The position numbers and the translations under genes are program-made. The notes below the pieces were generated by a model. That model did no database searches and was not told the DNA's origin. It saw only the letters and a list, made by a program, of their open reading frames with translations. Positions 10,438 through 40,590 of a stretch of 48,144 nt of DNA are shown piece after piece. Origin of the DNA: Mesobacillus subterraneus (GTDB lineage: Bacteria > Bacillota > Bacilli > Bacillales > Cytobacillaceae). The stretch lies in NCBI RefSeq assembly GCF_000934845.1, contig NZ_JXIQ01000184.1:1-48144 (forward strand), read 5' to 3'. Every line of letters starts with the position of its first letter. Position 1 is the stretch's first letter.

Positions 10438-11313
10438 TCAATCCGCCCACCTTTTCTGTAGTTTCATCTGGATTAAAGTAATCACAAATATGACGATGAA
10501 TAAAATCCATGACATTGCAGAAGCGTAGCCCATTTCGAAATACCGGAAAGCATGATTGTATATGTTTTGAACTAGAACATTTGTAGCTCCGCCAGGGCCT
10601 CCTTCAGTCATGATCATGACCTGGTCAAAAACCTGGAATGAGTTAATCAAAGAAATGATGGTTACAAAAAATGTCGTAGGTGTCAAAAGCGGAAGTGTGA
10701 TATTCCAGAATTTCTTCCAGGAATTTGCCCCATCAATATCTGCTGCTTCGTAGTAGGAGGTTGAAATATTTTGCAAGCCGCCCAAGAAGAGTACCATAAC
10801 AAATCCAATGTCTTTCCAGACACTTGTGATGATGATAGCTGGCATAGCTAAACTTTCATCTTGGAGCCAATTCAGCCCCTCAATACCAACAAATGATAAG
10901 AAATAATTTATTAATCCGTAACTCGGGTTAAACAGCCATTTCCAGACCAGAGATACGGCAACCCAGGAAGTCACTACTGGTAAAAAATATGCTGCTCTGA
11001 AGAATGTTCTTAATTTTACTTTTCGATTAAGCAGCAAAGCACATGCTAATCCGAAAATCATCACTAAGGGTAAATATCCAACAATAAAAGTTACCGTGTG
11101 GGTGAACGCTGCCCAAAATTCTTTGTCCACCATTAACTGTTTGTAATTATCAATACCCACAAATTCCATAGTGGATATTAGGTCCCAGTTCGTAAAGCTG
11201 ATGGCTAATGATGACAAAAGTGGGAAAACGATAAAAGTAAAGAAACCGATTAAATTGGGCAAAAGGAACACAGCTACCCAAAAGGCTGTCTTTTTCTTTG
11301 TCATTCCAACCAT
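10438..11313 (-). CDS. Sugar ABC transporter permease, MalF type
   Basis: 291 residues with about six membrane segments and the conserved loop YYEAADIDGANSWKKFWNITLPLL. This is the EAA motif that docks on the nucleotide-binding subunit. It is the first transport gene after the ROK regulator (9-bp gap) and is followed within 2 bp by the second permease. GAGGTG lies 5 nt before the ATG at 11313. The protein forms the heterodimeric channel of the importer with the MalG-type partner. Confidence 0.9.
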   Translation of the reverse strand: MVGMTKKKTAFWVAVFLLPNLIGFFTFIVFPLLSSLAISFTNWDLISTMEFVGIDNYKQLMVDKEFWAAFTHTVTFIVGYLPLVMIFGLACALLLNRKVKLRTFFRAAYFLPVVTSWVAVSLVWKWLFNPSYGLINYFLSFVGIEGLNWLQDESLAMPAIIITSVWKDIGFVMVLFLGGLQNISTSYYEAADIDGANSWKKFWNITLPLLTPTTFFVTIISLINSFQVFDQVMIMTEGGPGGATNVLVQNIYNHAFRYFEMGYASAMSWILFIVIFVITLIQMKLQKRWAD

Positions 11314-11322
11314 GTTCTCACC

Positions 11323-12543
11323 TCAATTTAATATAGATTTAGATTCTTCATAGATTGGAGCCTGGAACAAATGAGTGATTGCAAGTAAGGCTGCCCCTTT
11401 TAGCCATGAATCATCTCCTAGTTCTGTTGGCCTGATTTCTGTTTGGATCTTTGCTGCAGAGAAAAAGTTCTTCCTTGCAATATCTACAGCGGTATCCAGG
11501 AATAAGTGTTTGTATTTCATCCCTTCTCCAATAAGCAAAATTGTATGGGGATTAAGTGCGTTAATTGCATTTAGTATTCCATACCCAAGATTCTCACCAA
11601 ATGATTTCATCAGCTCGATTGCGAGAGCATCCCCATTTTCCGCCCCCTTGGAAACTTCTTCAAATGAAAAGTCTTCAATAATTGTTTCTGGATAGCTTTC
11701 TTTGATTTCACTGCCACGGTTTAATAGATAGAACTCAGACGCATACATTTCAAGACAACCCTTTTGTCCGCAATGACAAGGATATCCGCCAATCTTCATT
11801 ACAGTATGGCCGAACTCACCAGCTCCCCCGGATTCTCCGTAATAAATTTTCTTATTGACCACGAGGGACATACCCAATCCGGCACCAACAGAGATACACA
11901 GGAAGTTTGACAGGTCTTTTCCTTCTCCGTACCATAATTCAGCCATTGTGTAAGCGTTGACATTTTTATCAATGAATACTGGAATATTGTTCAACTGCTC
12001 GCTTAACAATTGACATAAAGGTACGTTTTCCCAACCAAGCATTGATGATCTAACAATCGTCCCTTCTTGGCGGTTAATTAATCCAGAAGCAGCGATTCCT
12101 ATACCCATTAGTTGCTCCATTGGCTTATCAGCATTTTGTAAAAGTTCCTTAATTTCACCAGCAATCATCGCTACAACATCCTGGATATTATCAAATCTGT
12201 TAAATTTCTTTTCTACTAAATTCAAAATGTCGGCATTTAAATTCGTTAAAGCAAATAATACTCTTTTTTCCTCGATCTTTACTCCAACTGTATACCCGTA
12301 ATCCGCATTAAACTCCAGGAGTACTGGCCTTCTACCTCCAGTTGATGTAGCAACACCAACTTCCCTTACCAAATCAACAGACATTAGCCCATCAACAATA
12401 TAAGTAATTGTCGATAAACTCATCTTCGTGATTTTAGAAACATCAGACCTACTGATTCTGCCTGATTTCCTTATTAAGTTAATTACTATGAAACGGTTCA
12501 TTTCCTTGATTAGATCCTTACTTCCTTTTCTAAGTCCATTCAT
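11323..12543 (-). CDS. ROK-family transcriptional regulator of the alpha-glucan operon
   Basis: 406 residues. An N-terminal winged helix (about 1-75; LIRKSGRISRSDVSKITKMS) is followed by a ROK sugar-kinase-like domain with the zinc motif CHCGQKGCLEMYAS near residue 260, as in XylR and NagC repressors. It is the promoter-proximal gene of the operon, 9 bp before the MalF permease gene, as in the Listeria lmo0178-lmo0184 locus. It probably represses the operon, including itself, until a glucan-derived sugar binds. A 31-bp palindrome 34 bp before its start is the obvious operator candidate. The kinase fold in such repressors serves sugar sensing; catalysis is not expected. Confidence 0.9.
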   Translation of the reverse strand: MNGLRKGSKDLIKEMNRFIVINLIRKSGRISRSDVSKITKMSLSTITYIVDGLMSVDLVREVGVATSTGGRRPVLLEFNADYGYTVGVKIEEKRVLFALTNLNADILNLVEKKFNRFDNIQDVVAMIAGEIKELLQNADKPMEQLMGIGIAASGLINRQEGTIVRSSMLGWENVPLCQLLSEQLNNIPVFIDKNVNAYTMAELWYGEGKDLSNFLCISVGAGLGMSLVVNKKIYYGESGGAGEFGHTVMKIGGYPCHCGQKGCLEMYASEFYLLNRGSEIKESYPETIIEDFSFEEVSKGAENGDALAIELMKSFGENLGYGILNAINALNPHTILLIGEGMKYKHLFLDTAVDIARKNFFSAAKIQTEIRPTELGDDSWLKGAALLAITHLFQAPIYEESKSILN

Positions 12544-12577
12544 TTACTCCAACTCCAAAATTTATTAACTAAAGATT

Positions 12578-12608
12578 AACTTACTTTCTTCAATAAAGCA
12601 AGTAAGTT
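12578..12608. promoter_or_regulatory. 31-bp palindrome, candidate ROK operator
   Basis: Half-sites AACTTACTT (12578-12586) and AAGTAAGTT (12600-12608) are perfect inverted repeats. An inner CTT/AAG pair extends the symmetry to 12 of 13 positions per arm, around a 5-bp centre. Length and AT-rich form resemble XylR-type ROK operators. It sits between the ROK gene and the divergent cotS-like gene, 34 bp upstream of the ROK start. On the plus strand it is followed by six T residues and could alternatively be read as a weak terminator, but no plus-strand gene ends here. Confidence 0.6.
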
Positions 12609-12714
12609 TTTTCGATATTTTTCGACAATTTAACTCATCTTTTAAAGTCATTAAAATAATTATTTCCGTCCATGGATATAAGTCCACCCAATTTTTCTCC
12701 AATGGAATATACTA

Positions 12715-12723
12715 CATAAATTA
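12715..12723 (+). promoter_or_regulatory. Sigma-K-like -10 element before the cotS-like gene
   Basis: CATAAATTA fits the sigma-K -10 consensus CATAnnnTA exactly. No good AC-containing -35 lies 16-17 bp upstream (TTCT at 12695-12698), and the predicted transcript start would be close to the ribosome site at 12731, so this is weak. A sigma-A-like TATACT (12708-12713) also lacks a -35. Confidence 0.3.
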
Positions 12724-12748
12724 AAGAACCAGGAAGGGGAATGACTAG

Positions 12749-13855
12749 TTGGAACAACTTATTGCACCATGGGATTTAGATGGCAGCTTAGGCGATTTAT
12801 ATGTTCCGCCATATATAGAAGAAATGGCTCAACAAGTCATCAATAAATACGATTTTAAAGTAAATAATATGGAAGTTATTACGACAAAGGCGGATAAGGG
12901 CGGGCTAATATGGAAAATCAATACCACCAAGGGGCCTAAAAGTTTAAAAATACTCCACCGAAGGCCTACTAGGAGTTTATTCAGCATAGGAGCTCAAGAG
13001 TATTTAGTAAATGTAAAAAAGGCAAGAATTCCGGTAATTGTAAAGACAAAGACAGGTGCAAACACGGTGGAAATGGGAGGGAAAATCTGGTTTGTCGCCG
13101 ATTGGATTGAACCGCTTACTCCAGTATCTGCCGACCTGGAAGGAGCGAAGTTACTGAGTCATGCGATTGGAGAGTTCAACGAGCTTTCCAAAGGCTATGT
13201 TCCTCCTAGAGGGGCAGAAACTTCTTCCCGGTTATATCGTTGGCCTAAAGCTTATAAAAAAATTAGTAAAAAAATCAACTGGTTTAAACATGTTGCCAAT
13301 TTATATTCCGAGCTGCCAGCCAGCAAAACCATTTTAAATTCGGCGGATATGTTTGATGAGCAAGCTAGAAAAGCATGGACCATGCTCGAGAAATCAAATT
13401 ATCAATCCCTAGTTGCCAAAGGAAATAAAGAATGGGGATTAGTTCACCAGGATTACGGATGGTCAAATGGACAAATGGGCCCAGGTGGGATGTGGATTAT
13501 CGACTTGGATGGGGTGGCATATGACTTGTCCATTCGGGATTTACGCAAACTCATTGGCGGCAGCATGGATGATTTAGGAAGATGGGATATTAATTGGGTT
13601 GTAGGAATGCTTGATGCATACAATGAAGCAAATCCGATTTCTGACGACTTACTTGAAATTTTATTAATCGATTTGTCGCTGCCTAATTTATATTATAAAA
13701 ACGTAAAGGAGATATTGATTGATCCTGTCCTGTCTTTAAACAGCGAATTTGATTCTGTTGTTCAAAGGATTATTGAAATGGATCAAACAAAATGGCCGGT
13801 AATTGAACAAGTGCGTAAAGAATGGAGAGGGGGAAAACGGAAATGGAAGTCTTAA
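12749..13855 (+). CDS. cotS: CotS/CotI-family spore coat protein (kinase-like fold)
   Basis: 368 residues of the CotS/CotI/YutH family, spore coat proteins with the fold of aminoglycoside/choline kinases. LVHQDYGWSNGQM gives the catalytic-loop pattern HxDxxxxN, and IIDLDGVAYDL gives the metal-binding aspartates, so phosphotransfer may be retained. Translation begins at a TTG preceded by AGGAAGGGG; the nearby ATG at 12741 is out of frame. The gene overlaps the following CotSA-like glycosyltransferase gene by 13 bp and is presumably cotranscribed with it, as cotS and cotSA are in B. subtilis. Expression in the mother cell is expected. CotS versus CotI assignment is tentative. Confidence 0.8.
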   Translation: MEQLIAPWDLDGSLGDLYVPPYIEEMAQQVINKYDFKVNNMEVITTKADKGGLIWKINTTKGPKSLKILHRRPTRSLFSIGAQEYLVNVKKARIPVIVKTKTGANTVEMGGKIWFVADWIEPLTPVSADLEGAKLLSHAIGEFNELSKGYVPPRGAETSSRLYRWPKAYKKISKKINWFKHVANLYSELPASKTILNSADMFDEQARKAWTMLEKSNYQSLVAKGNKEWGLVHQDYGWSNGQMGPGGMWIIDLDGVAYDLSIRDLRKLIGGSMDDLGRWDINWVVGMLDAYNEANPISDDLLEILLIDLSLPNLYYKNVKEILIDPVLSLNSEFDSVVQRIIEMDQTKWPVIEQVRKEWRGGKRKWKS

Positions 13856-15231
13856 TAGTTAGTACGGAAAAACTTCCAGTTCCGCCGGTAAAAGGAGGAG
13901 CAATTCAAACATATATCCATGGAACTTTGCCAGTTTTAAGAAAAAACCATTCGATCACCATAATTGGACGGGATGATGAAACATTACCTGATAAGGAAAT
14001 AAAGGACGGGATTAAATATATAAGAGTTACAGGAGGATTACTAGAAACATACCAAGAAGGCGTAGTGAATTTTCTTAAAAACAATAAGTTTGACTTGATT
14101 CATATTTTCAATCGTCCTCGCCTTGTTTTACCAATACGGGAAGTGGCACCTCGTTCACGACTCGTTTTAAGTATGCACAATGATATGTTTAAGAGAGAAA
14201 AAATAGATCCTGAAGAAGCTCAGAAAGCAATCGATCAATTAGATAAGATCATAACCATCAGCAATTATATAGGAAAAGAAATAACAGACCTTTATCCTGA
14301 TGCTAAACCTAAAATAAAAACAATTTATTCTGGTGTGGACTTGGATCGATTTGTTCCTGTTTATTCTGATAAAGGCAAGAAAATAAGGGCTTCCATGCGA
14401 CGAGAACACAAGTTAGAATCAAAAAAGGTTATTTTATTTGCTGGGAGGCTTTCTGCAAACAAAGGGGCAGATATACTTCTGAGGGCTATGGAGCTCTTGG
14501 TTAAAAGGCACCCAAATGTGGCGTTGGTTCTTATGGGAGGCAAAGGTTTTAGTGATAACGGTATGAGTGATTACATTGCTTATATGAAAGCTATCGCGGA
14601 CCGCCTAACCATTCCAGTCATAACAACTGGCTTTGTTCAGCCTGATCAAATTCAAAACTGGTTCATCGCTTCAGATATATTTGTTTGCCCTTCTCAATGG
14701 GAGGAACCGTTGGCACGAGTTCATTATGAGGCTATGGCAGCAGGATTGCCGATTGTTACTACTAACCGGGGAGGAAACTCTGAAGTCATAGAGGTTGGCA
14801 AAAACGGACTGATTGTCCAAAACCCAGAAGATCCTCAAGAATTTGCAAACCATTTATCAAAATTACTTTCAAATCCTGCTCTATGTAAAGAGATGGGACA
14901 ATACGGAAGACGGATTGCAGAAAAAAATCATCACTGGGATCGAGTCATCAATGATATATCACAAGTTTGGAGTGAGATCGAGCATAAAATCAAGAATCAC
15001 CTCGAAATAGGAAATCAATCGATAGTTAAAGTGGAAGATGAATATTCATCGCTGAGTGAGTTGGTAAGGTATTTATTAGGGGAAGAGTCCACTGAGAACG
15101 AGCCATCGATACCACGGATTGCTGATAAAGTTTCACAAGTTAAGAAAAAGCCAGTTCGAAAAAAACTACCATCAAAACCATGGTATAGCAGTGAAAAAGC
15201 AGCTATAAAGGCAAACAAAATTTCATTTTAA
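13843..15231 (+). CDS. cotSA: CotSA-like GT4 glycosyltransferase of the spore coat
   Basis: 462 residues. The GT4 architecture is clear: an N-terminal Rossmann domain with VPPVKGGAIQTYI, then the C-terminal domain with ILFAGRLSANKGADILL, and the donor-site motif EEPLARVHYEAMAAGLPIVTT. B. subtilis CotSA is about 377 residues; here an extra tail of about 85 residues, ending in a Lys/Arg-rich stretch (VKKKPVRKKLPSKPW), is added. The frame is open to an ATG at 13822, but the ATG at 13843 has AGAGGGGG 8 nt upstream and is the better start. It overlaps the cotS-like gene. It is a paralogue of the convergent ytcC gene (15287-16465). Role: glycosylation of spore surface material, by family inference. 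Confidence 0.82.
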   Translation: MEVLIVSTEKLPVPPVKGGAIQTYIHGTLPVLRKNHSITIIGRDDETLPDKEIKDGIKYIRVTGGLLETYQEGVVNFLKNNKFDLIHIFNRPRLVLPIREVAPRSRLVLSMHNDMFKREKIDPEEAQKAIDQLDKIITISNYIGKEITDLYPDAKPKIKTIYSGVDLDRFVPVYSDKGKKIRASMRREHKLESKKVILFAGRLSANKGADILLRAMELLVKRHPNVALVLMGGKGFSDNGMSDYIAYMKAIADRLTIPVITTGFVQPDQIQNWFIASDIFVCPSQWEEPLARVHYEAMAAGLPIVTTNRGGNSEVIEVGKNGLIVQNPEDPQEFANHLSKLLSNPALCKEMGQYGRRIAEKNHHWDRVINDISQVWSEIEHKIKNHLEIGNQSIVKVEDEYSSLSELVRYLLGEESTENEPSIPRIADKVSQVKKKPVRKKLPSKPWYSSEKAAIKANKISF

Positions 15232-15239
15232 CCTAAATG

Positions 15240-15267
15240 AAAACCACCCGTTGAGACGGGTGGTTTT
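15240..15267. terminator. Bidirectional terminator between two convergent glycosyltransferase genes
   Basis: A perfect 12-bp stem (AAAACCACCCGT with ACGGGTGGTTTT) and a TGAG loop, with T residues on either strand within the stem ends. It lies 8 bp after the CotSA-like stop and 19 bp from the ytcC stop, and can serve both genes. Confidence 0.88.
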
Positions 15268-15286
15268 CTCTGTATGGACACTCTGA

Positions 15287-16465
15287 TTAGAAAAAACGGA
15301 ATAGCTGCTGCCTAAATCCTTTTTCGTTATTAGGTAACAAGTCAGAGTAAACATGGATCAATCGGCTTGCCGTCTGCTTGAATTGAAAATTTGATTCGAC
15401 TAATTTTCTTGCTTCCTTTGTAATTATTTCCACACTATCGGGATTCATCAAATAAAAATGGATTCCCTTTGCAAATTCGCTAACTTGATCGTACTTGTCA
15501 ATTAAATAGCCTGTTTTTTTATGGGAAACCACCTCTGCATTTCCTCCCCTATTTGTAGTGATGACAGGTATTCCTGCTGCAAATGCTTCATAGTGAACTC
15601 TCGCTAATGGTTCTTGCCACTGTGAGGAGCAGACGAAAATATCACTCATCAAAAAAATGTTTGGGATTTCACTTGCTGCGATAAACTTTGTGAAAATAAT
15701 TTTGTTGCCTAATGGTTCTGCTAATTTCTTTAAGTAGCGAATATAATGATTGATCCCATCATCGCTAAACCATTTCCCCCCAGCAATTACAAGAACCGCA
15801 TCAGGATATTTTTTGGCGATAGCTTTAAATGCCGCTATGAGAAGATGAGGGCCTTTATTTTTGGTTAGCCTCCCAACAAATAAAATGACCTTCTTATCCT
15901 CGATATTATATTTTTTTCGATATTCCGTTCTGATCTCCTTGCCTTTCGAAGACCAAACAGGAGGATATTCCATTAAATTCACTCCAGAGTAGACTACTTT
16001 CACTTTGGATTCCGCTTCAGGAAAACGCTCCAAAACTGTTCGTTTTACATACTCGCTTACGGTAACAATCCTATCTACCAAGCTTATAATTTCTTTTCCT
16101 TGTTCCAAGGTTACTTTTTTTTCGGAAAGCATTTCGTTATGAAGTCCTAAAACGAATCGGCTTGTTGGAGTGGCTTTTTTATAAAGAGGGATGGTTAATG
16201 GCCGATTAAAAACATGAATAATGGGAAACTTCTTTTCAGCAAGTATTTTAGCAATATTCCTTTCGTAGTGCTGGGGAGGTACACGGATGTATTGCACACC
16301 GTTACGTGTTTCATTATCAGGGAGGGATGGATCAGAGACTGAAATAATCGTTAATTCATAGTTATCCTTGAGATACGGGGTGACACCATCGATCATCATT
16401 TGGATAGCTCCACCCTTTACAGCAGGTGAAGGAAGCTTTTCTGTGCAAATAAAAGCGAGCCTCAT
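15287..16465 (-). CDS. ytcC: YtcC-like GT4 glycosyltransferase
   Basis: 392 residues, GT4 fold with PAVKGGAIQMMI near the N-terminus, ILFVGRLTKNKGPHLLIAAF at the start of the donor domain, and EPLARVHYEAFAAGIPVITTN as the donor-sugar motif. It follows a nucleotide-sugar epimerase gene and a UDP-glucose dehydrogenase gene (4-bp overlap with the epimerase gene). This is the ytcA-ytcB-ytcC order of B. subtilis, a locus expressed late in sporulation and tied to the spore surface. It likely transfers a uronic-acid-derived or related sugar made by its neighbours. The strong similarity to the convergent CotSA-like gene indicates duplication. Confidence 0.83.
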   Translation of the reverse strand: MRLAFICTEKLPSPAVKGGAIQMMIDGVTPYLKDNYELTIISVSDPSLPDNETRNGVQYIRVPPQHYERNIAKILAEKKFPIIHVFNRPLTIPLYKKATPTSRFVLGLHNEMLSEKKVTLEQGKEIISLVDRIVTVSEYVKRTVLERFPEAESKVKVVYSGVNLMEYPPVWSSKGKEIRTEYRKKYNIEDKKVILFVGRLTKNKGPHLLIAAFKAIAKKYPDAVLVIAGGKWFSDDGINHYIRYLKKLAEPLGNKIIFTKFIAASEIPNIFLMSDIFVCSSQWQEPLARVHYEAFAAGIPVITTNRGGNAEVVSHKKTGYLIDKYDQVSEFAKGIHFYLMNPDSVEIITKEARKLVESNFQFKQTASRLIHVYSDLLPNNEKGFRQQLFRFF

Positions 16466-17418
16466 TCCCCCACCTCCTTATAGAGTGCTTGTATATCCTT
16501 TACTTCATTAATTAATCCTTCTTTTAAAGATACTTTTGGCTGGTAATGCAGAAGCTTCTCTGCTTTTGTGATATCAGCCCAAGTATGTCGCGGTTCCCCT
16601 CGAGTTTTCCCAATAAAGTCCATGGCCACTTTTTTGCCAGTCAGCTCTTCTAATACCTTGATCACTTCTAAAATGGATTTTCGTTCTTTTCCTCCTATAT
16701 TAATTGTTTCACCGATGACATGGTCCCCATAAATAGCAGCAACCGTTCCTTCCACACAATCCCCAATATACGTAAAATCACGCGTTTGTTTGCCATCACC
16801 GTATATAGGGATGGGCTTACTCTTTAACATGTATTCAATGAACCGATGAAAAGCCATATCTGGCCGCTGTCTAGGTCCATAAACAGTAAAATACCGAAGG
16901 ATCGTGATTGGAATGCCGTCGTTTTCACTGTAGACATTACATAAGTATTCTCCCGTTAGCTTTGTTACTCCATAAGGCGAAAGAGGAGAAAGAAAACTAT
17001 TTTCCGAAACCATCCCACTCTTTTCTCCATAGACGGAAGAAGTAGAAGCATAGACTAGCTTCTTTATAGAAACATCCTTACAAGCTTCCAACAGCCGTTG
17101 GGTGACGAGAATATTAGATTCTGCATACAATGGAAAATTATTACCCCAGCTAGAGCGCACTCCTGGCATTCCGGCCAAATGACAAATCACATCATCTTTC
17201 GACATTACTTTTCCCCAGTCAATTTCCAATAAATTTTTATCAAGAAACGTAAAACGAGGATGATGCAGCAAATTTTTAAGATTTCTTCGTTTTACTTGTT
17301 TTAGAGCAGGGTCGATAAAACCGTCGATGCCGATCACCATATTCTGCTCATCCTTTAATAGCCTCTCACATAAATGGGATCCAATGAATCCAGCTGCTCC
17401 TGTAACGATAATCCTCAT
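16462..17418 (-). CDS. ytcB: NAD-dependent nucleotide-sugar epimerase (YtcB)
   Basis: 318 residues of the extended short-chain dehydrogenase family. TGAAGFIG at the N-terminus is the NAD-binding glycine motif; the catalytic pair is in SPYGVTKLTGEY (YxxxK), with the upstream catalytic serine/threonine in YASTSSVYG. Related enzymes epimerise UDP-glucose or UDP-glucuronate at C4. The start codon shares one base with the end of the UDP-glucose dehydrogenase gene, suggesting that UDP-glucuronate is the likely substrate. The three ytc genes are translationally coupled. Confidence 0.83.
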   Translation of the reverse strand: MRIIVTGAAGFIGSHLCERLLKDEQNMVIGIDGFIDPALKQVKRRNLKNLLHHPRFTFLDKNLLEIDWGKVMSKDDVICHLAGMPGVRSSWGNNFPLYAESNILVTQRLLEACKDVSIKKLVYASTSSVYGEKSGMVSENSFLSPLSPYGVTKLTGEYLCNVYSENDGIPITILRYFTVYGPRQRPDMAFHRFIEYMLKSKPIPIYGDGKQTRDFTYIGDCVEGTVAAIYGDHVIGETINIGGKERKSILEVIKVLEELTGKKVAMDFIGKTRGEPRHTWADITKAEKLLHYQPKVSLKEGLINEVKDIQALYKEVGE

Positions 17419-20051: not shown

Positions 20052-20264
20052 ATGGGAAAAGAAGAAATGTCATGGCTTCTTAGAGGAGCAAGAGATTCAG
20101 GTCTTGATCGGTTCCTGATGAGAAACCCAGGATCGACTAAAAATCCTGAAGTTGAAGCTGAAGCTGGTTCTGGCTCAGGTTCTGGTTCTTGTTCTAGCTC
20201 CGGATCTGGTTCTGGTTCTGGATCCGGTTCAGGTTCCGGATCTGGTTCTGGTTCTGCTTTATAA
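20052..20264 (+). CDS. Small Gly-Ser dipeptide repeat protein, candidate CotG-like coat protein
   Basis: 70 residues. A unique N-terminal part (about 1-38; MSWLLRGARDSGLDRFLMR) is followed by about 15 Gly-Ser dipeptides from residue 39 with a short CSSS interruption, ending SAL. AAAGGTGG lies 11 nt before the ATG, and a good sigma-K promoter lies upstream, so I take this strand as coding; the reverse frame, rich in PEPD, is a shadow. It has no clear homologue that I can name. Position and serine richness parallel B. subtilis cotG, which is divergent from cotH and encodes a CotH substrate. Role as a CotH phospho-substrate is inferred. The hexamer DNA repeat should make its length variable. Confidence 0.65.
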   Translation: MGKEEMSWLLRGARDSGLDRFLMRNPGSTKNPEVEAEAGSGSGSGSCSSSGSGSGSGSGSGSGSGSGSAL

Positions 20265-35034: not shown

Positions 35035-36450
35035 TTAAAAACATTCCTTAAAGTATTCCATCACATTTCCCACAGCCGCTTCTGCCTGGTCGATGCATCC
35101 AGGTATCCCAACACCTTCATAAGAACCGCCAGCAAGAAAGATGCCTGGAAGCTCTTGTTTAAGCTCCGCTTTCACCTTTGCGATTCTTTCAAGATGGCCA
35201 ACCGTATATTGCGGCATCGCTTTTCTCCACCTGGTCACAATAGTGAATTCTGGCTTTGCCTTAATATTCATCGTTTTATTCAAATCTCTTAATACCAATT
35301 CGGTTATTTGGTCATCTGTTAGATTGACCGCTTCCTGGTCATCCGGTTTGCCGACATAGCAGCGGAGAAGCGCCATATTGTCAGGTGATGTGCCCGGCCA
35401 TTTTTTATGTGTCCACGTACAGGCAGTAATCCGAAAATCACTGTTTCTCGACACCAGGAATCCTGTTCCGTCGATATCCTTCTCGATCGCTGATTTTGGA
35501 AATGCCATCGCCACGTTTGCCACAGAATTGGCTGGCATATGTTTAAACGGTTCCATGAATGGATACGCCGACAACATGCGCTGGGCGTGGAAGTGATCTG
35601 TCGCAATCACTACACTATCTGCCGTTTCCACTTCCCCCTTCTCGAGATAGACTTGATAAGTCGATCCTGTCCTCTCAACCTTGTTCACCGCTTTTCCCTT
35701 CAAAACGGACCCTTTTTCGAGACGCCTTTCCACCTGGCGGACCAATTCCTCCAAACCAGTTGACAAGGAAATAAACATCCCTTTTTTCGATCCTGGCTTT
35801 TTGGCAGTTTTCGGAGGCTTCGGCATCGATTTGTTCAAACCAATCACTAGGCTGCGATACTTCTGTTCGATTTCATAGAAATTGGGGAACAAAGCCATCA
35901 GGCTCAGCTCGTCTATATCGCCTGCATAAATCCCGGACAACAAAGGATCTATCAGGTTTTCAACGACCTCATTTCCGAGCCGTCGCCGGAAAAATACGCC
36001 TAATGACTGATCGGCTGTCGGTTCCCCTTTTGGCAAAATAAAATCCCCTGCTGCTCGTAATTTGCCCAGAGGGGAAAATAACCCAGACAACGCAAACGGG
36101 GTGACTTTTGTGGGAATTCCCATGAACGATCCGTCAGGCATGGTGTGCAGCCTGCCCCTTGCGTAAATATAAGATCTCCCCGCCATATTCGAGATGATTT
36201 TATCCTGGAGACCTACTTCTTCAATCAACCTCAACGCACTTTTTTTTCGGGCAATGATTGAATCAGGACCTCTTTCAATGACAAAACCATCCCTCGTCTC
36301 AGTACGGATAACCCCGCCAAGACGGCCGCTAGCCTCGATCAATTTAACTTCGATCGGCAGCTCTTCTTCCCTTGCTTTCTTTTGGAGATAATACGCAGCA
36401 GTTAGCCCAGTAATTCCACCGCCTATGATGATAACCTTTTTTTGATCCAT
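35035..36450 (-). CDS. hemY: Coproporphyrinogen III / protoporphyrinogen oxidase (HemY, CgoX)
   Basis: About 471 residues, an FAD enzyme of the monoderm haem pathway that oxidises coproporphyrinogen III to coproporphyrin III. The dinucleotide fold KKVIIIGGGITGLTAAYYLQ is at the N-terminus and the FAD C-terminal motif GIFLAGGSYEGVGIPGCIDQAE at the end. ATG 36450 is chosen with GGGTG 6 nt upstream; a GTG at 36459 is also possible. In B. subtilis it follows hemE and hemH; here it stands alone, so the gene has been relocated or the other haem genes are elsewhere. Confidence 0.9.
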   Translation of the reverse strand: MDQKKVIIIGGGITGLTAAYYLQKKAREEELPIEVKLIEASGRLGGVIRTETRDGFVIERGPDSIIARKKSALRLIEEVGLQDKIISNMAGRSYIYARGRLHTMPDGSFMGIPTKVTPFALSGLFSPLGKLRAAGDFILPKGEPTADQSLGVFFRRRLGNEVVENLIDPLLSGIYAGDIDELSLMALFPNFYEIEQKYRSLVIGLNKSMPKPPKTAKKPGSKKGMFISLSTGLEELVRQVERRLEKGSVLKGKAVNKVERTGSTYQVYLEKGEVETADSVVIATDHFHAQRMLSAYPFMEPFKHMPANSVANVAMAFPKSAIEKDIDGTGFLVSRNSDFRITACTWTHKKWPGTSPDNMALLRCYVGKPDDQEAVNLTDDQITELVLRDLNKTMNIKAKPEFTIVTRWRKAMPQYTVGHLERIAKVKAELKQELPGIFLAGGSYEGVGIPGCIDQAEAAVGNVMEYFKECF

Positions 36451-36598
36451 ATTGCTCACCCGTCTTTTTGTACTAATTATCTAATATGTGAAAGTTTTAA
36501 CATAAAAAAAGTATAGCACTAGAAACAGACAAGTTGATGGATGTTATTTTACTAAAATGTGAACGAGAGTACTGGAAAAAATCTCTGATAATTACCAG

Positions 36599-36711
36599 TT
36601 CGCGGAATTATCATTGTTTTTCGCGGAATCAAGTGCGAGTTTCGCGGAATTAATCGTCTTTATCACGGAATCAGGATGGCAGATCGCGGAATAAAGTCGC
36701 CAGTTCCGCGG
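36599..36711. repeat. Intergenic array of a GC-rich motif at exact 21-bp period
   Basis: The 8-mer CGCGGAAT starts at 36601, 36622, 36643 and 36685, with a one-base variant (CACGGAAT) at 36664: five units spaced exactly 21 bp. A sixth, degenerate copy (CCGCGG) lies at 36706. The motif is usually flanked by TT on the left and TA or CA on the right; the 9-11 bases between units are unrelated. It lies in the 388-bp gap between hemY and the cyclase gene, which otherwise shows no gene. The period equals two helical turns, so all motifs face the same side of the DNA. Confidence 0.85.
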
Positions 36712-36838: not shown

Positions 36839-37465
36839 TTATTTCATTTTTCGAATCACCGCTCTAACCGGGCTCCCGTCTCCCTGTTCGAGCGGGAGCG
36901 GCAGGGCGGCGAGTTCGTAGTCACCCGGTTCAATCTGATCCAGTACAAGGCCTTCAAGAATATGGATTCCATGGTTGTTCAGTTCATGATGCGCATTGAG
37001 TTCTTTACTGTCCAGTGGATCGACCGATGGCAAATCGAGTCCGAGTAATTGTACTCCCTGCTCAGACAGATATGCAGCCAATTCCGGTTCGATATGAGGG
37101 ATTGATTCCGGGAAAGCTGTTTTATCCTGCCATGCATCGGTTCTGATCAGCAGCCGCTTTACTCCGCTTAGATTAATGCCTTCAAGCTCTTTAAGCCCGA
37201 TACTGGCTGGCTTATCCACATGGATTACAAGTGCAACTCCAATATAGAGTTGAAAGTCCAAATCAATGACCTTTTTCCCATCGCTTTCGAAATGAAAAGG
37301 GGCATCAATATGTGTGCCCGTATGAGTGCTCATCGTCACCTGCCCGACATTGACCGAACCGCTTTCTTCCATACCCCAGCTCACTTGGTATTCAAATGGC
37401 GTGTCGCCAGGCCAGACAGGAATTTTATCGTGTAAAACCTGCGAAATATCAATCCAGTTTTCCAT
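36839..37465 (-). CDS. kynB: Cyclase-family metal hydrolase, probable kynurenine formamidase
   Basis: 208 residues, matching KynB length (about 209). The family hallmark HTGTHIDAPFHF (metal ligands His, His, Asp) is present, as is the later HHELNNHGIHILEGLVL. KynB hydrolyses N-formylkynurenine in tryptophan breakdown. No kynA or kynU gene is beside it, so the substrate is uncertain and other cyclase-family amidases are possible. GAAAGGAAGG lies upstream of the ATG. Confidence 0.75.
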   Translation of the reverse strand: MENWIDISQVLHDKIPVWPGDTPFEYQVSWGMEESGSVNVGQVTMSTHTGTHIDAPFHFESDGKKVIDLDFQLYIGVALVIHVDKPASIGLKELEGINLSGVKRLLIRTDAWQDKTAFPESIPHIEPELAAYLSEQGVQLLGLDLPSVDPLDSKELNAHHELNNHGIHILEGLVLDQIEPGDYELAALPLPLEQGDGSPVRAVIRKMK

Positions 37466-37730
37466 ACATTTTTCCTTCTTTCCTCTATAAAATAGTCTCC
37501 CGCTTAGGATTCACTTTCGTTCTCCATTCCTCAAGCGAAAGGGTAATCTCCTGTAGCAAAGTTAATACTTATAATTATAGTATTATTACAGTGTGATATA
37601 GACTTTTTTTATCACAGTTATGAACATTTTCTAAAACACTTCATAATTAGTTTGGGTAACACTATGCTTTTTATTATGGATAAATGGGTATATATTGGGG
37701 ATAAGGAATAAAGGAAGGGGATCATCGGCT

Positions 37731-38846
37731 TTGAGACAATTTTTTTCGCTTCTGATTATCGGGGCGCTGGCCTACTTTTCATGGCCATACATTACTGAGA
37801 ATAAAGATATTCAAACTAAAATAGAGAATTTAAAAGAAAACCAAGAACTTGCGTCTGTGCTTGAGAAGCTGAATAGCGGATTGAACCAACTGATCTGGCA
37901 GGTCAATGAGAAAAAAGAGGAATTAACGCAGGATGAAAAGATTTTGCCTAAAGTATCTAAACCAGAACTGGCAACACCTTCAGAGGTAACATTCACCATC
38001 CATAATATTAGAATTGGGGATAAAAAGGTCGAAGTTGAAAAACAGCTTGGCGCCCCGAAACGGATTTCCATGAATGAGTACGGTACAGAGTGGCATGCCT
38101 ATCATGAAAATTTTCAGAACTTCACGATGGTTTCCTATAGCAAGGACGGAGTAGTGAATGCTCTGTATACTAATCAGGACCTGATTGCTGCTAAAAATGG
38201 CATCAAATATGGCGCTGCGAAAGAGACCGTTCGTCAGACACTTGGGGAACCACTCAAGGAAATCAGAAAAGGGCTTGTTTATTACCAGTTCCAGAATGAT
38301 CAAGACTATGACGTTTACCATATTGATGACAGCTATGTGACTGTCTTTTATGATAAACACAGGAACAATACCGTAACAGCCATCCAGATGATCAGTGAAA
38401 AACTGGAGCAAAGTAAGGCAGGTTTTTATACGAAAGCGAGTGACGCGTTGAGAGCAGGTTTTGAATACCAGTTGTTTGATTTGACGAATGCTTCAAGGGT
38501 CGTTCATGGTTTAGGCATCCTTACTTGGGACGATCCAATTAAGGTTACGGCCCGCAAACACAGTGTCGATATGGCGGAGAACTCCTATTTCAGCCATACG
38601 AATCCTGCAGGCCAGTCGCCTTTTGACAGGATGGCTGAAGACGATATTGTCTTTTCCGTCGCCGGGGAAAACCTCGCATACGGCCAATTCAGCAGCATTT
38701 TCGCCCATGAAGGTTTGATGAACTCACTCGGGCACCGGGAGAATATCCTGAAGCCGGACTTCAAGTTGCTTGGTGTCGGCGTCGCCTTCGGACCAAAGCA
38801 TGAACCTTATTTTACAGAGAACTTTTACAGTAAGAGGAAGTTTTAA
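37731..38846 (+). CDS. Membrane-anchored CAP-domain protein (YlbC-like)
   Basis: About 371 residues. The N-terminus has one hydrophobic segment (FFSLLIIGALAYFSWPYI), then a coiled, charged stretch, a CAP-associated N-terminal domain (about 95-230; IGDKKVEVEKQLGAPKRIS and GAAKETVRQTLGEPLKEI are two similar sub-repeats), and a C-terminal CAP/SCP domain with ARKHSVDMAENSYFSHTNPAGQSPFDRM and GHRENIL. B. subtilis YlbC has the same layout. The TTG at 37731 follows AAAGGAAGGGG by 9 nt; the frame is open back to a TTG at 37695, which lacks a site. It probably acts outside the membrane; function unknown. Confidence 0.82.
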   Translation: MRQFFSLLIIGALAYFSWPYITENKDIQTKIENLKENQELASVLEKLNSGLNQLIWQVNEKKEELTQDEKILPKVSKPELATPSEVTFTIHNIRIGDKKVEVEKQLGAPKRISMNEYGTEWHAYHENFQNFTMVSYSKDGVVNALYTNQDLIAAKNGIKYGAAKETVRQTLGEPLKEIRKGLVYYQFQNDQDYDVYHIDDSYVTVFYDKHRNNTVTAIQMISEKLEQSKAGFYTKASDALRAGFEYQLFDLTNASRVVHGLGILTWDDPIKVTARKHSVDMAENSYFSHTNPAGQSPFDRMAEDDIVFSVAGENLAYGQFSSIFAHEGLMNSLGHRENILKPDFKLLGVGVAFGPKHEPYFTENFYSKRKF

Positions 38847-38956
38847 GAAAGCTGACTGGGAAAAATTCGCTATATAAAGCTGCAATATCGGTTATTTCCG
38901 AGGATCAAGTCTAGTTTTCAATATAATTCTACCGCTTGTTCATGCTTGAATGATTT

Positions 38957-39068
38957 TATTGGCGGTTTTCACAATTATATTGGCGATTTCCGGATTTTAT
39001 TGGCGATAATATTGTTTTATTGGCGAAAACCACTTACTTATTGGCGAAAAACTAATTTTTGGCGAATT
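38957..39068. repeat. Second intergenic array: TTATTGGCGA motif, about 20-21 bp period
   Basis: The core GGCG starts at 38961, 38982, 39002, 39022, 39043 and 39061 (spacings 21, 20, 20, 21, 18). The consensus is TTATTGGCGAAAA. It lies in the 313-bp gap between the CAP-domain gene and the subtilisin gene, before a bidirectional terminator. Its form parallels the array at 36599-36711, but its motif differs. No ORF uses it sensibly. Confidence 0.82.
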
Positions 39069-39108
39069 GGAAATTCCGGGCTCTTTTTTCCATTTACCGA
39101 AAAACAAA

Positions 39109-39159: not shown

Positions 39160-40401
39160 TTACTTCACTCGTGGGAAACCGAAACCTGACGCATAGTCAT
39201 CGCCTGATGTTGCACCCGATCCACCTTGGATATCGTTCGCTTTTGCCCGATTCTGTAGCTCGGCGCGAAGCTGATTGTGACTCATGTTTGGATTTTCCGC
39301 CCAGATCTTCGCTGCCAATCCGGACACGTGCGGAGTTGCCATGGATGTTCCGCTAATGGTGTTATAGGAACCGTCGTACCAGGTTGATTCAATTGATCTT
39401 CCTGGTGCAGATACTTCCACATCCCGTTCCTGGATTAGATAATCCCCATCAGTAGCGGGATTTCCGCGGGAGGAGAAGTCAGCGACACGGTATGTACCGT
39501 TTTCCTGAACATCTTCAAGTGCTGCGACTGCAACTGCGTTTGTCAATGCGCCCGGGTATCCAATAGTATCCGCATTCGGACCGCTGTTTCCAGCTGCTGC
39601 AACAACCAGAACCCCTTTTCCATAGGCATAATCCACTGCATCCGCAATCATTGTACTCTTGCTGCTCGAACCAAGAGACATCGAGAGCACGACATGCGAG
39701 TTCGTACGGGCAGCTTCATCTGCAACATGCTGGATGGCGGCGGCGATATCATCAGAATAACCGGATCCTTGATCGTTTAGCACTTTATAGGCCCAAAGAT
39801 CAGCTTCAGGAGCTACCCCATAAATTCCATTTCCTGATCCTCCATCTGCCAGTACCGTTCCGGCTACATGAGTACCATGGCCGTTTTTATCCGTACAAGT
39901 CCCATTTACCAACGGGGATCTTCGGTTCGTAAAATCCTTGCATTGCTCATCGCTGCCAGCCAAATCGGCATGGTTTACGTTGACTCCCGTATCGAGTACG
40001 GCTACTTTAACCCCGCTGCCACCGGACGTTGCCTGTAGATTGCTATCATTGTAGATTGCTTCCATTCCCCAAGGTGTGCGGTCGGAAGGTGCAGCCTGAG
40101 CACCTGATCCTGGCTTCGCTTCCAGCTGAACCTGAGAAACTGGTTCTACTTTTAGATTCTTATTTTTTAATAGTGCTAGATATTGCGGAGCATTTACCGT
40201 CGTGGTAAAACCGGTTTCTCCAAAATCCCATCTAATTCCATATTGGTCTTTCACCTTAGCCTTTTCCGCTGATGGACCATGAACCAAAATTCGATAGGAG
40301 TCCTGCGTCTCTGGTGTCTGTCCAAATACCCCAGCTGCGAACATAGATAGTCCCATTGTCATGCTTAATAGTGCGGCTCCGATTGCTTTTTTTCCTTTCA
40401 T
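39160..40401 (-). CDS. Secreted subtilisin-like serine protease (S8)
   Basis: About 413 residues. A Sec signal peptide (MKGKKAIGAALLSMTMGLSM to the AAGVFGQ region) and an inhibitor propeptide (about 30-105) precede the mature protease. The catalytic triad is D137 (VAVLDTGVN), H175 (NGHGTHVAG) and S353 (GTSMATPHV), with the oxyanion asparagine in AAAGNSG. Two cysteines flanking an insertion (EQCKDF and NGTCTD) could form a disulfide, and the overall length is close to that of the TA41/sphericase-type subtilisins. GAGGAG lies 7 nt before the ATG at 40401; an ATG at 40419 is upstream of that site. Degrades extracellular protein. Confidence 0.93.
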   Translation of the reverse strand: MKGKKAIGAALLSMTMGLSMFAAGVFGQTPETQDSYRILVHGPSAEKAKVKDQYGIRWDFGETGFTTTVNAPQYLALLKNKNLKVEPVSQVQLEAKPGSGAQAAPSDRTPWGMEAIYNDSNLQATSGGSGVKVAVLDTGVNVNHADLAGSDEQCKDFTNRRSPLVNGTCTDKNGHGTHVAGTVLADGGSGNGIYGVAPEADLWAYKVLNDQGSGYSDDIAAAIQHVADEAARTNSHVVLSMSLGSSSKSTMIADAVDYAYGKGVLVVAAAGNSGPNADTIGYPGALTNAVAVAALEDVQENGTYRVADFSSRGNPATDGDYLIQERDVEVSAPGRSIESTWYDGSYNTISGTSMATPHVSGLAAKIWAENPNMSHNQLRAELQNRAKANDIQGGSGATSGDDYASGFGFPRVK

Positions 40402-40590
40402 CCAACCACTCCTCGGCATTGATATGGTATTACAATTTTTATTATATTTTAAATTTTTAGATAACTACAATATGCTAAATGAATCATTTTGAATTTTTAA
40501 GAATAAGGTCCATTGCTGTGTGAAAAAAATGTCATATGCACAAAGAATCATTTTTAAAATTTCCCAATATCGTTTTGGATTTTAAAATGA

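Follow-up and report, generated by a model that had tools for sequence, protein, structure and literature searches.

A 21-bp phased motif array in Mesobacillus subterraneus belongs to a published class of intergenic repeats that keep their sites and change type within the genus

Two arrays and their neighbours in the window

The window, that is, the whole stretch of 48,144 nucleotides of Mesobacillus subterraneus DNA that was analysed, carries two arrays of short, regularly spaced motifs. One lies upstream of the gene for a HemG/HemY-like flavin amine oxidoreductase (which we take to be HemG), and the other between convergent genes for a CAP-domain protein and a subtilase. The features are given below by coordinates, strand and description.

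35035..36459, minus strand: HemG/HemY-like flavin amine oxidoreductase (PF01593), used as orthology anchor
36571..36599, plus strand: leader of array 1, a 29-bp imperfect palindrome, ACTGGAAA-N13-TTACCAGT, abutting the first repeat
36600..36692, plus strand: array 1 (family A), five TCGCGGAAT units at an exact 21-bp step
36600, 36621, 36642, 36663 (TCACGGAAT) and 36684, plus strand: starts of the TCGCGGAAT units of array 1
36839..37465, minus strand: putative cyclase (PF04199)
37695..38846, plus strand: CAP-domain protein (PF14504, PF00188), second orthology anchor
38855..38879, plus strand: remnant of a lost family-I array, consisting of one TTCGCTATA unit joined to a left leader half-site (ACTGGGAAAAA)
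38956..39065, minus strand: array 2 (family B), five TTATTGGCGA units (TCGCCAATAA read from the leader)
39066..39094, minus strand: leader of array 2, AATGGAAA-N13-TTTCCAAT
39160..40419, minus strand: subtilase-family protease (PF00082), convergent with the CAP gene

An earlier note on this DNA had described array 1 as five copies of one motif, one of them altered, at exactly 21-bp spacing and followed by a degenerate sixth, and the positions bear this out: TTCGCGGAAT stands at 36599, 36620 and 36641, ATCACGGAAT at 36662 (with a single change, within CGCGGAAT) and ATCGCGGAAT at 36683, the whole spanning 36599-36692, while the sixth position, at 36706, reads CCGCGGTT. The bases between the units are unrelated (mean spacer identity 0.38). 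The evidence for array 1 is its register, because the 10-mer alone is not rare in the window (8 occurrences with one mismatch against 3.64 expected, and 4 of 100 shuffles reaching 8). Promoter-like consensus matches numbered 4, against 1.4 expected from shuffles. No terminator-like site was found at array 1, in agreement with the earlier note, and no Rfam family reached its gathering score between 34900 and 40600. A coding repeat was ruled out as well, as had also been claimed: the 20-bp steps found in other arrays disrupt the frame, and none of the 74 Mesobacillus arrays collected overlaps a predicted gene. On the cyclase side of array 1, relatives carry a different gene (by eye).

The units of array 2 follow one another at 21, 20, 20 and 21 bp, with an extra degenerate unit, TTTTTGGCGA, 18 bp further on at the leader-proximal side; because this adjoining unit is degenerate, the leader of array 2 falls outside the strict leader count given below. 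Tandem Repeats Finder, at score 30, reported array 2 and not array 1. The same program reported a 6-bp/24-bp tandem repeat of CTGGTT units elsewhere in the window (20164-20256). At the site of the family-I remnant, 17 relatives have a family-I array, whereas the genome of the window (G000) contains no three-copy family-I match. The earlier note had overlooked the leader palindrome and the second array, as well as the fact that repeats of this class had been published.

Leader, period and families across the genus

The 29-bp leader, ACTGGAAAAAA-N8-WWTTTCCAGT with half-sites 21 bp apart, abuts the first repeat in 59 of the 74 Mesobacillus arrays (families A, B, G and I; at most two mismatches per half-site), and 57 of these 59 leader sequences are distinct. 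Among the 15 arrays outside this strict count, nine have a shifted or degenerate leader by eye (array 2 included), and in six, all of family A, the left half-site at least is missing; the leader is not seen in families C, D, E, F and H. The leader together with TTCGC was found in 20 of the 21 genomes of the genus and in 0 of 172 other genomes of the family. Searched for by itself, the leader matched 49 times in three genomes, a count in which palindromic matches appear once for each strand; of the 28 loci (out of 30) examined with their flanks, 25 lead directly into phased repeats, and at L207, L211 and L235 the repeats lie on the opposite side of the palindrome. In some leaders (L220, L233 and others) the palindrome is nearly perfect, with a centre such as CACGTG, and such leaders give a match on either strand. 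An RNA hairpin formed by the leader was considered and rejected: positions 2 and 28 (33 CG, 12 TG, 11 CA, 2 TA and 1 TC; n = 59) do not co-vary, and the leader may therefore be two half-sites and not a hairpin.

The spacing of the repeats was similarly regular. Of 195 same-core pairs less than 90 bp apart (seven cores, 41 blocks), 194 lay at 20-21, 40-42, 60-63 or 80-84 bp, and one at 52 bp. Family A intervals were 21 bp in 96 of 98 cases and family I intervals 20 bp in 36 of 37, and those of family B (n = 175) were 20, 21 and 19 bp in 115, 59 and 1 cases, respectively. The two-turn period is firm, yet it is not exactly 21 bp in every family; by arithmetic, with 10.5 bp to the turn, each 20-bp step falls about 34 degrees short, so that the phase drifts along the array. 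Of the proposal that a motif and its helical phase are kept, the spacing of about two turns stands and fits side-by-side assembly, but 21 bp is not universal (20 or 20/21 bp is used elsewhere), and relatives bear other motifs at the position orthologous to array 1.

Three copies of TCGCGGAAT in register were found in 11 of 61 genomes and three copies of TATTGGCGA in 20 of 61, all within the genus, with no match to the reversed-pattern controls (in 61 of 61 genomes for TCGCGGAAT). A motif-free detector set to 19-22 bp found 35 divergent-spacer arrays in 115 blocks of 20 kb (15 in G018 and 4 in G009, that is, 19 in Mesobacillus, and 16 in G034, where many lie in repeated blocks), compared with 0-4 arrays at six other period ranges and none in five shuffles of the same 2300 kb. 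Further motifs recovered by it in the genus were CGTGCAATTA, TATTACCGG, TTTATTCGCA, TCGCTATA and TCGACCA, and CAACCGGAGATA, CAACGGGGATTA and CAACTGGTATTA form adjoining arrays near the terminus of G018. The three arrays, at 10814-11250 of L261, each have a 21-bp period and their own variant of CAAC-NGG-N-ATA. Several families can thus be present in one genome (A and B in the window; B, C, E, F and G in G018).

Individual families have also been lost. Family I gave no match in G000, G008 and the incomplete G010 and 9-92 in each of the remaining 18 genomes, with a reversed control that was not fully clean (3 matches, in G003 only). Family B is nearly lost from G017 (2 matches) and G015 (4 matches), and G008 has no match to A, B, I or the leader. 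Any function of the arrays must be dispensable, since arrays are gained and lost and G008 has none of these elements. The loss of family I from G000 and the near loss of B would fit a family-specific partner, but drift would fit as well.

Outside the genus, arrays were found in two of eight other genera of the family sampled at 80-100 kb each (G034 and G023, with none in G024, G030, G036, G027, G035 and G029) and in none of five other families of the order (80 kb each). Matches outside Bacillaceae (Treponema, Hasllibacter, Acidobacteria, Myxococcales, Rathayibacter and others) contained no divergent-spacer array except L059. In L162 (G034), at about 11000-17100, entire ATCAACCA arrays recur in blocks together with their shared flanks, at distances of about 187-219 bp, and L170 and L171 (G023) hold AAGGCTCAT arrays of 9-12 copies at an exact 20-bp step with alternating spacer types. 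Arrays L027, L071 and L075 sit in a record named Chryseobacterium sp. ISL-80, a name that looks wrong.

Orthologous sites, placement and conservation

At orthologous sites the array is retained while its type changes, and such changes include switches between the 20-21 bp and the 52-53 bp class. Upstream of hemG, the 21 genomes carry family A in five (G000, G005, G006, G007 and G017), family C at 19-21 bp in six (G001, G004, G011, G013, G018 and G020), and family D, whose unit is 53 bp long and whose inverted cores alternate, in another five (G003, G009, G015, G016 and G019); a single leftover unit is present in G002 and G012, and nothing in G008, G014 and G010. At the site between the CAP and subtilase genes, 16 of 21 genomes have family I facing family B, with I and its leader behind the CAP gene and B with its leader on the subtilase side; in two genomes (G007 and G017) only two or three exact I units are present. 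G014 has I only, the window genome has B with a fragment of I, and neither family is present in G010 and G008. In G002 (L289), two inverted-core units lie 52 bp apart downstream of the CAP gene before the contig ends. These 52-bp units occupy the place of the 20-21 bp arrays in other species.

Among the alternatives to a protein-binding function, a mobile repeat carries the most weight, followed by an RNA element, then a neutral satellite and lastly intrinsic curvature. A selfish, MITE-like dispersed element, in which a mobilising enzyme would use the leader as its terminal sequence and copying would require the motif, is unlikely. It would account for many copies per genome with a constant end, for several array types at one site, and for the recurrence of spacers such as AAATTGTGAACT at different loci, but the arrays stay at the same sites genus-wide, as I and B do at the CAP site, and blastn matched array 1 to no plasmid or phage record. 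Spread by phages or plasmids was rejected, since viral contigs gave 0 matches for the leader, 0 for family B and only three stretches for family A, of which one (L294) is an alignable tandem repeat and two (L295 and L296) share one short match.

Gene contexts were tabulated, a check that had been proposed for array 1, and showed the arrays to be intergenic, mostly between tandem genes and rarely between divergent ones. In counts made with a simple custom gene finder and including orthologous loci, the 66 arrays with both neighbours known comprised 48 tandem, 14 convergent and 4 divergent contexts, against 155, 33 and 50, respectively, for 238 background gaps of at least 200 bp. Divergent placement was rarer than in the background (4/66 versus 50/238, P 0.003), and the P value for convergent placement was 0.18. 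The leader-side gene faced the leader with its 3' end in 47 of 70 cases (46% expected, P 0.0007), the hemG array being an exception to this tendency.

Placement of this kind could also be expected if the arrays worked at the transcript level, as small RNAs or 3' tails for instance, an explanation that we regard as improbable. Besides the 3' ends at the leader, it can draw on the 52-nt satellites of Bacillus coagulans reported in RNA-seq data (PMC8625621) and on the folding of array 1, which is better than that of most shuffles: the z values for both strands were -1.83 and -2.49 for array 1, the two strongest folds, with 2 and 8 of 200 shuffles folding as well. For array 2, however, the values were -0.62 and 0.17, not above shuffles, and no Rfam family was found. 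The arrays occur in both orientations relative to neighbouring genes (29 sense and 19 antisense among the 48 tandem-gene arrays), and those at the CAP site often lie past a terminator-like hairpin (by eye), all of which argues against an RNA element.

With respect to the replication origin, located from dnaA, family B lay in the origin half of four complete genomes in 19/21, 17/21, 12/14 and 11/13 cases, counts in which orthologous arrays are shared between genomes and gene content is uncontrolled. In each of G009, G016, G018 and G019 one family-B array is about 4 kb from dnaA. Arrays of other families were found close to the terminus.

The motifs are better conserved than the spacers between them. 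At the hemG site, where the family-A arrays of five species have five units each in the same order, differences amounted to 36/500 in motifs and 123/440 in spacers (Fisher P 9e-18, from non-independent pairs). At the CAP site (16 loci), the corresponding values were 77/2457 and 489/2093 for family B (14 of 16 rows in register) and 0/1080 and 387/1080 for family I (10 of 13 rows), a comparison that favours the motif because rows were kept only if each motif was within two bases, and in which pairs are again non-independent. Family A carries 1.67-2.00 bits per motif position and 0.05-0.6 bits over most spacer positions, and families B and I also show constraint towards A/T in parts of the spacer, reaching at least 1 bit. 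An apparently orthologous GTGCAATTA array in two species (L131 12846 and L202 2403) keeps much of its spacers besides the motif. In this it is unlike families A, B and I, which let their spacers drift.

The comparison of period and motif against spacer, which the earlier note had called for, upheld its view that array 1 is not an ordinary tandem duplication: low spacer identity and spacer divergence rule that out, the motif and period are kept while spacers drift, and the pattern recurs in the genome and in relatives. Absence from relatives, random spacing and alignable spacers had been named as grounds for abandoning that view, and none of them was found for family A; family I is less clear as to the spacers, since some of its arrays have near-identical neighbouring ones. 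Such arrays (L214), which look like recent tandem expansions, and the somewhat more degenerate leader-distal units of families A and B are what replication slippage producing 20-21 bp duplications, followed by decay, might leave. A neutral satellite of this kind is nevertheless very improbable, as decay should affect motif and spacer alike while the motif changes less, and slippage does not explain one period for unrelated motifs together with a common leader. Least probable is intrinsic curvature from AT tracts phased with the helix and acting with no specific protein: each unit alternates a GC core with AT-rich flanks, but an invariant 8-9 bp core, family-specific cores and a conserved palindrome would all be unneeded for bending.

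Relation to known repeats and a possible architectural role

The array belongs to a published, unexplained class of repeats. Subirana and Messeguer 2021 (PMC8161180) described Bacillus repeats of 20-21 nt or 52 nt, with constant length and variable sequence, several families per genome, a generally non-coding location and a short conserved signal in each repeat. The authors, who called the repeats enigmatic, noted the two helical turns and proposed a polymerising nucleoid-stabilising protein or small RNAs; the same authors later reported transcription of the 52-nt repeats of B. coagulans (PMC8625621), and an earlier general survey of prokaryotic satellites is available (PMC6749651). Array 1 fits the definition in PMC8161180, in which units are of 20-21 nt (+/-1) in at least four copies, with five units at 21 bp; it shares the core TCGCGG with the 21-nt repeat signal of B. 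weihaiensis (Table 2 of that paper), and the several same-length families per genome, short signal and non-coding location are found here too. Table 4 of the same paper gives, for B. selenatarsenatis, 30 repeats of 20-21 nt and another 49 of 51-53 nt. The families described there are mostly species-specific, whereas A, B and I are shared across the genus; species-specificity was not taken as defining, because the paper itself records shared families both for B. selenatarsenatis with two closely related species and for B. simplex with B. muralis. In unit length, family D upstream of hemG (53 bp) and the CAP-site units of G002 (52 bp) resemble the 52-nt repeats, and 52.5 bp is five helical turns by arithmetic. 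These repeats differ from the other arrays described here by the longer unit, the inverted cores and the greater similarity of spacers within an array.

Three other systems share some of these properties. Plasmid iterons are direct repeats about two turns apart that are bound side by side by an initiator. The arrays described here, in contrast, are dispersed over the chromosome with several motifs per genome, and the two window arrays are flanked by genes for HemG-like, cyclase, CAP and subtilase proteins and not by a Rep gene. CRISPR arrays likewise combine a leader, short repeats and unrelated spacers, but the repeats here measure 9-10 bp, and CRISPR-like spacer acquisition was rejected because orthologous arrays keep their unit number and their spacers in order, the spacers remaining recognisable and aligning unit by unit. 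Noc sites are single palindromes of another sequence, and thus differ from the direct-repeat arrays described here in both form and sequence. The Noc sites of Bacillus subtilis are specific sites scattered around the chromosome (PMC4331003), as the arrays described here are; family B is enriched in the origin half of four genomes.

Added here to the published description are the leader, the swaps at one site (including those between size classes), the conservation of motif over spacer, and the family losses. The main text of PMC8161180 has no words beginning with leader, flank, palindrom or intergenic, and the leader, the one-site swaps and selection on motif over spacer were not found in the literature searched, nor was any partner or function of the repeat class reported there since 2021.

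A short motif repeated at 20-21 bp is more conserved than its spacers, lies mostly behind a constant leader and is kept at orthologous sites. Array 1 is probably one of a family of chromosomal, intergenic binding platforms for a sequence-specific protein, and action at the DNA level is favoured because motif and period are conserved, the palindrome is constant, the arrays face either way relative to genes, and no consistent RNA fold was seen. We infer that a DNA-binding protein would recognise each motif and contact the copy bound two helical turns further on, which would let four to six copies align along one face over about 100-130 bp of DNA. The leader could be bound as a dimer site, perhaps seeding assembly in one direction, and the motif families might be read by related proteins or by altered specificities while the leader stays unchanged. 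The role of the platform that fits best would be that of an architectural or insulating nucleoprotein block and not classical promoter regulation, a preference that follows from its intergenic position, the frequent 3' end of a gene at the leader and the rarity of divergent neighbours.

More tentatively, the swaps could reflect a conserved palindromic seed combined with interchangeable phased arrays, in which related proteins of diverging specificity would assemble from the same leader and motif and protein would turn over together by lineage; two-turn (20-21 bp) and five-turn (52-53 bp) arrays may then be alternative solutions to the same intergenic, chromosome-architectural task.

The leader offers a fixed bait for protein pull-down, and the family losses a phylogenetic profile for the partner, for example a factor absent from G000 and G008 and present in the 18 genomes with family I, while the hemG and CAP sites provide natural swaps for comparison. 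If a partner is found, the arrays would represent a multi-copy architectural system of bacterial chromosomes with satellite-like turnover of its motifs.
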